Assembly (NCBI GenBank): GCA_001512435.1
Contig: LFRS01000142.1
Coordinates: forward strand, 28,865-83,361
Length of the DNA: 54,497 nt
Source of the DNA: Halothermothrix sp. DTU029
GTDB taxonomy: Bacteria; Bacillota; Halanaerobiia; Halanaerobiales; DTU029
Reading direction: 5' to 3'
This document shows, piece by piece, positions 37,748 to 37,894 of this stretch. The position numbers and the translations under genes are program-made. The stretch's first letter is position 1. Each line of letters starts with the position of its first letter. Under the pieces are notes generated by a model, which made no database searches, was not told where the DNA came from, and was given only the letters and a program-made list of their open reading frames with translations.

Positions 37748-37894
37748 CAGGTAGAGTCAATAACAGGGTCTTTCCCGGAACAAGCCTCTACCTGACTCTT
37801 CCGCCTTCCTGAAGGCAGAGGACAGAAGAGGACGGTCTGCCTGTGTTCCTCCATAAAAAATTGGCTCAAGGACACAGGAGAACCGTCCCCCTGT
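37748..37894. mobile_element. REPIN-like inverted-repeat element
   Basis: A structured 147-base segment in an otherwise plain intergenic gap. Two imperfect inverted arms share GACGGT and CTGTGT cores: 37820-37849 and 37871-37894 (its minus strand reads ACAGGGGGACGG, TTCTCC, TGTGTC). They flank a 21-base AT-rich spacer. Next to them are a hairpin GCCTTC-CT-GAAGGC (37803-37816) and a nine-pair inverted repeat CAGGTAGAG / CTCTACCTG (37748-37756 and 37786-37794). The GGGGACGGTTCTCCTGTGTC-type arm resembles, from memory, repeats scattered in many clostridial genomes and linked to REP-associated transposases. No transposase is present here. The element begins a few bases after the stop of the 37899 gene. 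Confidence 0.75.

Follow-up and report, generated by a model that had tools for sequence, protein, structure and literature searches.

A probable REPIN from a family of GACGGTT-loop palindromes associated with RAYT transposases in Bacillota

In a 54,497-nt stretch of the Halothermothrix sp. DTU029 draft genome (hereafter the window), the segment at 37820‒37895 is very likely a REPIN, consisting of two head-to-head REP units with a variable stem and a near-constant GACGGTT loop, and a likely substrate of a RAYT transposase. The window element belongs to a dispersed and probably mobile DNA family that travels with this single-strand DNA transposase. The anatomy of the REPIN, the pairing of its arms, the orientation of its units, a RAYT gene bracketed by such units in a relative, the genome-wide association with RAYT genes and the covariation of the stems are all directly observed. 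The element is a short imperfect palindrome found at dispersed extragenic sites, and its inverted pair folds as a hairpin, as broadly expected of REPs and REPINs. A RAYT gene flanked by the same units was found in the relative G005 and not in the own genome. In our usage, a REPIN need not share its genome with a RAYT, although it would need one there to be mobile today; the sections of PMC3733652 considered here allow that REPtrons may be absent where they have been deleted.

The element lies in the gap between the last gene of the floA unit, a 133-aa ORF on the minus strand (37899‒38300 in the ORF list), and yqfC, the first gene of the next unit, also on the minus strand (37336‒37626). Both gene names are those of the original prediction. 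This gap contains a 147-nt hairpin block (37748‒37894), whose edge is 4 nt from the stop codon of the 133-aa ORF; its place directly after a stop codon is as predicted. As RNA, the block folds with −63.2 kcal/mol (z = −5.5), which none of 200 shuffles equaled. Its arms, GGACGGTCTGCCTGTGT (37830‒37846) and ACACAGGAGAACCGTCC (37872‒37888), lie 25 nt apart and are 82% complementary over 17 nt, so that the predicted inverted arms and structured block are real. Both arms fit the same degenerate pattern with zero mismatches, one on each strand. With up to three mismatches, this pattern has three matches in the window versus a mean of 0.57 in 100 shuffles, one of which reached three. Folded as single-stranded DNA, the inverted pair has a z of −3.8 on the plus strand (equaled by 1 of 200 shuffles) and −4.6 on the minus strand (equaled by none of 200).

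The two units differ in preservation. The left REP unit (37820‒37849, plus strand), delimited by sequence, arm and fold, is decayed; its 5′ arm is GGACAGAAGA, its 3′ arm is TGCCTGTGTTCC, and its loop GACGGTC (37831‒37837, plus strand) is one base off the family GACGGTT. The right REP unit (37870‒37895, minus strand) is well preserved and reads ACAGGGG-GACGGTT-CTCCTGTGTCC on the minus strand, with the GACGGTT loop at 37881‒37887, and is defined by sequence, fold, BLAST and exact arm copies. Between them, a spacer (37850‒37869) recognized from sequence and DNA fold forms the apical part of the fold.

The two further hairpins of the original prediction also exist. A perfect 9-bp inverted repeat, CAGGTAGAG/CTCTACCTG (37748‒37794), has a DNA fold with a z of −3.1, equaled by 1 of 200 shuffles, and is placed outside the repeat family by fold, BLAST and relatives. 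This inverted repeat is single copy in the genome and is missing at the same place in G001, G002 and G005. The second hairpin (37795‒37829), recognized from the DNA fold, is weak and does not stand out (DNA z = −1.05, equaled by 36 of 200 shuffles; BLAST matches at chance level only); it adjoins the REPIN and is not treated as part of it. The proposed 147-base REPIN-like element is therefore kept as an inverted pair of a dispersed repeat and not at its proposed length, since two of its three hairpins are not repeats. A search of Rfam with 37300‒38400 (E up to 1) gave a single match, to a human lncRNA family far below its cut-off, which we take as chance. A separate hairpin covers the ribosome-binding site of yqfC on the minus strand, directly before the gene (about 37626‒37672 of the window). 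It is kept in eight genomes of the family and order, with 13 pairs, three of which have changed on both sides, and it may control yqfC translation, to judge from these alignments.

Only about 37820‒37895 is repeated, and the other sequence of the block is single copy in the own genome and missing from the corresponding place in the two congeners. BLAST of 37748‒37898 against this genome (a draft of 1.95 Mb in 187 contigs, 95.55% complete) found the window itself and 20 other places, ten of them at E < 0.01, and all ten match the right-hand arm; no credible second copy of the two left hairpins was found by this search. Fourteen of the 21 BLAST places were inspected; of the seven omitted, four had an E of 3.1 and three were among the four at E 0.89, and one of these three (C83) is of the family type. 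All 14 lie between ORFs, as called by a simple script, and each adjoins the 3′ end of one ORF or more. Exact copies of the strict arm GGACGGTTCTCNTGTG number five in the own genome, five and four in its congeners, 13 in G005 of the same family and one in G045 of another family of the class; the other 56 of the 61 genomes scanned have none, and the reversed control has none in all 61. A one-mismatch version of the arm pattern was dropped as evidence in the own genome, with 18 matches versus 15 in the reversed control, so the exact copy number there is uncertain. The original prediction had proposed searching the genome with each arm and with the paired arms. The arm proved to be multi-copy, with five exact copies versus none in the control, but the strict paired pattern did not match. 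This strict REPIN pair pattern had no match in G000, G001, G002 or G005, and it misses the window copy because the left loop is GACGGTC and the spacing is longer.

The same slot is occupied in close relatives. In the congeners G001 and G002, the corresponding stop codon is directly followed by family units, and the aligned gaps differ in unit content from the window. G005, in a sister genus of the same family, has no unit in the slot and carries a plain intrinsic terminator instead. The promoter-like sequence TGTGGTATAATA before yqfC is kept in all four genomes (the window, G001, G002 and G005), and the unit therefore sits between the end of one operon and the next promoter. Since same-family units occupy the same place in two congeners, the insertion probably predates the split of the genus, as far as these alignments indicate, and the simplest history would be an insertion in the ancestor of the genus that was remodelled afterwards. 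The shared place fits an old insertion and also fits a kept local function.

A kept function is the core of the strongest alternative, in which the block serves the floA‒yqfC gap locally, as a regulatory or terminator structure conserved for its own sake. That three congeneric genomes all have same-family units directly behind this stop codon is what it expects, as are the unit of G002, which itself fits an intrinsic terminator pattern with the tail ATTTTT, the shorter stem that fits this pattern in the G001 slot, and the plain terminator of the sister genus. We nevertheless consider this alternative unlikely, since the arm is found in multiple copies at unrelated places and the three gaps differ in unit content. 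A scan of the gap found no terminator-like site on the sense (minus) strand of the window version, so the terminator role that had been suggested for it is not supported. Among 21 kin units, the T-run behind the hairpin differs greatly from one unit to the next and is not general among the copies, and termination was rejected as a general function of the units. The original prediction had opposed a mobile repeat to a single-copy structure conserved in place, and the outcome is split: the repeat is multi-copy, yet same-family units occupy the same place in two congeners.

The REPIN reading gains from the RAYT gene of a relative. G005 encodes a 256-aa RAYT with inverted copies of the units on both sides, and the same gene is carried by L166, a MAG of the Halanaerobiaceae; cultured kin such as Thermohalobacter or Alkaliphilus also have a RAYT. 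Searches for Y1_Tnp in the own genome, an incomplete draft, and for a RAYT in G000, G001 and G002, all incomplete draft assemblies, gave no match. Thus, the expected Y1 or RAYT gene flanked by the same arms exists in G005 but was not found in the own genome. The RAYT of L166 matches the NCBIfam model NF047646 (REP_Tyr_transpos) with 64.4 bits, below the curated cut-off of 80; all 31 members of alignment A2 match this model at E ≤ 0.01. The predicted RAYT structure (pLDDT 89) has as its best match 4er8, the E. coli RAYT bound to a REP hairpin (Foldseek 6e-8; Z 18.2, rmsd 2.6, 162 residues aligned), versus a Z of 11.2 for IS608, and 4er8 is the sole solved relative found by sequence. His60, His62, Tyr119, Asn123 and Pro124, which form the HuH pair and the Y---NP motif, are invariant in the 23 sequences of alignment A1 (23 of 32 RAYT loci, with full flanks; not every such locus was taken) and in the 31 sequences of A2 (31 of the 37 first-listed loci; one with a stop codon and five others were omitted). 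A C-terminal helical domain of 70 residues is also predicted (pLDDT 91). It has weak Pfam HTH matches and structural matches to KorB, DnaA and TrpR of only Z 3‒5, and fold comparison gave no firm match.

Across the phylum, the tag follows the enzyme. We sampled 398 genomes of Bacillota and scored a genome as RAYT-positive when a single query protein matched it at E ≤ 1e-10, a rule under which distant RAYTs count as absent; 121 genomes were positive. The tag GGGGACGGTTCT is present in 188 of the 398. At least three copies occur in 82 of the 121 RAYT-positive versus 20 of the 277 RAYT-negative genomes (Fisher 1e-35, a figure that overstates certainty since the genomes are phylogenetically non-independent), and at least ten copies in 50 of 121 versus 7 of 277, with medians of 7 and 0. 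The exceptions are 16 of the 121 positive genomes that have no tag and 16 of the 277 negative genomes that have at least five copies, the genome of the window included. Few genomes, eight of the 398, have the narrower arm type seen in the window, and six of these are RAYT-positive. The repeat type, described in the original prediction as widespread in clostridial genomes and mobilized by such transposases, is indeed present in many Bacillota genomes and tied to RAYT genes, but no Y1 transposase was found in the own genome. Five genomes, G435 (32 copies), G388 (27), G164 (21), G168 and G060, are tag-rich (17‒32 copies) and have no RAYT match at E ≤ 1e-10. The enzyme of such genomes could be lost, divergent or missing.

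The association is also local. Among 79 named RAYT loci, GACGGT[TC] lies within about 250 nt upstream of the RAYT in 39 of 74, downstream in 37 of 78, and on both sides in 32 of the 73 loci taken into the two-sided count; the order around the RAYT is head to head in 27 of these 73. Blocks of RAYT flank within 250 nt carry the tag in 75 of 152 cases, versus 21 of 412 blocks at 750‒2000 nt. Thirty-two loci are tag-less with enough flank, and in 18 of them an inverted pair with a related core of the GGGAC[AG]G type was read by eye. Strict pairs in 28 genomes, chosen as tag-rich or kin, are head to head in 134 cases (19 genomes) and tail to tail in three (one genome). The sole genome with tail-to-tail pairs is G328, which has 111 tags in total. 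Paired arms often vary between copies with complementarity kept.

Covariation of the stems was assessed in upstream units, which were usable at 38 of the 79 RAYT loci. Stem pairs 4‒8, counted outward from the loop, are formed in 71‒92% of the 38 units versus 44‒65% after shuffling, and they are paired on average in 83% versus 34‒53% when the partners are slid by one to three positions. Pairs changed on both sides number 53 versus 10‒25 in the slid registers. Since the units were collected by their core, a constant loop is in part built into the set, but the stem result is not. Stem similarity tracks RAYT similarity at 36 of the 38 loci, stop-containing translations having been dropped (r = 0.48, reached by 0 of 2000 permutations; this Mantel figure likewise overstates certainty for non-independent genomes). 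The two units of one RAYT are alike at 0.78, versus 0.46 between different RAYTs (24 loci).

These stems bear on a second alternative, in which the unit is a protein-binding operator, for example of a nucleoid or replication protein, and is merely accompanied by RAYTs. Its constant core and intergenic placement would suit an operator, as would the tag-rich genomes without a detected RAYT, G435, G388 and G164 with their 32, 27 and 21 copies. However, a duplex operator would keep its stem letters, and stem covariation around a constant loop points to a folded single strand; neither the bias of 134 versus 3 in orientation nor the covariation with RAYT is predicted by an operator. We therefore consider it very unlikely.

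The upstream unit keeps a regular distance from the RAYT gene, with 59‒72 nt between the start of its loop and that of the RAYT in 35 of 41 cases. This spacing, together with a tag that follows RAYT presence and a stem type that follows RAYT similarity, makes it hardly credible that the units, instead of being RAYT-linked REPs, come from an ordinary insertion sequence of the IS200/IS605 or DDE type as its terminal repeats or as MITE-like debris, even though such debris can likewise be short, dispersed and inverted and G001 has one IS200-type Y1 gene, a 138-aa open frame.

Of the 35 loci with a unit 55‒75 nt upstream, 24 have a sigma-70-like site, with no fewer than 9 of the 12 letters of TTGACA-16/18-TATAAT matched, that starts inside the 3′ arm or right behind it. 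Shuffles gave a mean of 2.4 and a maximum of 8 in 200, and downstream units 1 of 12; as the best site in a window was compared with mononucleotide shuffles, this excess is indicative only. At these 24 loci, all from the named RAYT set L165‒L243, the −35 box touches or overlaps the upstream REP unit. The unit abutting a putative promoter suggests RAYT autoregulation, and we propose that RAYT bound to its upstream unit would block its own promoter.

We consider the head-to-head units a likely substrate of the cognate RAYT, a HuH/Y1 enzyme of the IS200/IS605 superfamily. The RAYT would recognize the single-stranded hairpin by its loop and stem, and would cut and rejoin it, moving or copying the inverted pair. 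Such movement would most likely take place at the replication fork, and the pair would spread into tolerant spaces after genes. The window copy is in a tolerant slot of this kind, downstream of the stop codon that closes the floA unit and ahead of the conserved yqfC promoter, and locally it is a 3′-UTR hairpin. Since no RAYT was found in the own genome, the window copy is probably an inherited, immobile relic.

The family shares much with the REPINs and RAYTs of Pseudomonas and E. coli, as these are described in the relevant parts of PMC3116915 and PMC2817692: short dispersed extragenic palindromes, pairing in inverted order into a long hairpin, copies of the palindrome on either side of the cognate RAYT, and letters that change without loss of palindromicity. 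Unlike those REPs, which have GT(A/G)G at the hairpin foot, the units here have the constant GACGGTT in the loop. Within the 16 nt before the stem, GT[AG]G is found in five of the 39 units upstream of a RAYT and in one of the 21 kin units, with 7% expected by chance, and is absent at both window units. The units were therefore not assigned to the GTAG-tagged REP super-family, GT[AG]G near the foot being at about chance level. The CGTC-tagged REPs are likewise small palindromes with head-to-head dimers, and CGTC is the complement of GACG. However, in the passages of PMC3733652 that concern them, their tag is at an unpaired end with no linked transposase, whereas the units here carry GACG in the loop and are tied to RAYTs, and this super-family was also rejected.

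A closer likeness is to the TIRYTs, genes with terminal inverted repeats that form TIRtrons, as set out in the sections of Di Nocera 2013 (PMC3733652) drawn on here. In both, inverted repeats with a GGGG-type core stand on either side of a RAYT-like gene, and the same sections describe some TIRs as self-complementary, forming moderately abundant families with dimers. The TIRYT motif GGGGWSAS given there differs from GGGGACGGTT here, which fails at the seventh base; the exact motif is not found in the family, whose core is GGGGACGG, and the units were not classed as TIRYT terminal repeats on this motif. Several tag-less RAYT loci carry GGGGACAG, which fits GGGGWSAS. Since tag-less RAYT loci have GGGAC[AG]G-type cores, several with this sequence, the GACGGTT family and the TIRs of Di Nocera probably grade into each other at the level of their core letters.

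The enzymes resemble TnpAY1 subclass 2.1, or RAYT group 1, by their motifs. The sections of Quentin 2018 (PMC6006769) considered here present this subclass as the second largest RAYT class and give the Y---NP signature and the HuH pair as common to all of class 2. The RAYTs here share both features with subclass 2.1, and their C-terminal extension with helix-turn-helix-like letters may correspond to the HTH/Bac_DnaA_C-like extension of that subclass. According to the same sections, neither automatic nor manual search found REP-like sequences beside subclass 2.1; if the RAYTs here belong to it, they differ from that description in having REP-like units. We regard it as possible, somewhat short of probable, that the GACGGTT-loop palindromes are the unrecognized REPs of RAYT group 1/subclass 2.1 (TIRYT) in Bacillota, with RAYTs that would read a loop tag and not a GTAG foot, each repressing its own promoter via the REP at the −35 box and with free units titrating the enzyme.

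The words "clostrid" and "firmicutes" are both absent from the main text of Di Nocera 2013. Among open-licence papers on RAYTs, REPINs, TIRYTs, REPtrons and TIRtrons, the listed titles and abstract starts gave no description of clostridial REPs, and by title none of those listed for GACGGTTCTC and core spellings concerned repeats. Thus, we found no print record of the loop-tagged family in open-licence papers; as the original prediction already refers to this repeat type, specialists may know it from unpublished work or from papers outside this set.

Taken alone, the window element is ordinary and of modest significance, as an old REPIN, probably an immobile one, within a 3′ untranslated slot. 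What is new in the family is a putative recognition tag in the hairpin loop, versus the hairpin foot of textbook REPs. The family is a natural set of matched enzyme and hairpin variants for the question of how HuH transposases choose their hairpins, and it offers a predicted feedback circuit at the RAYT promoter. If the Bacillota RAYTs belong to group 1, this class would gain its missing substrate, a hairpin with a GACGGTT loop.
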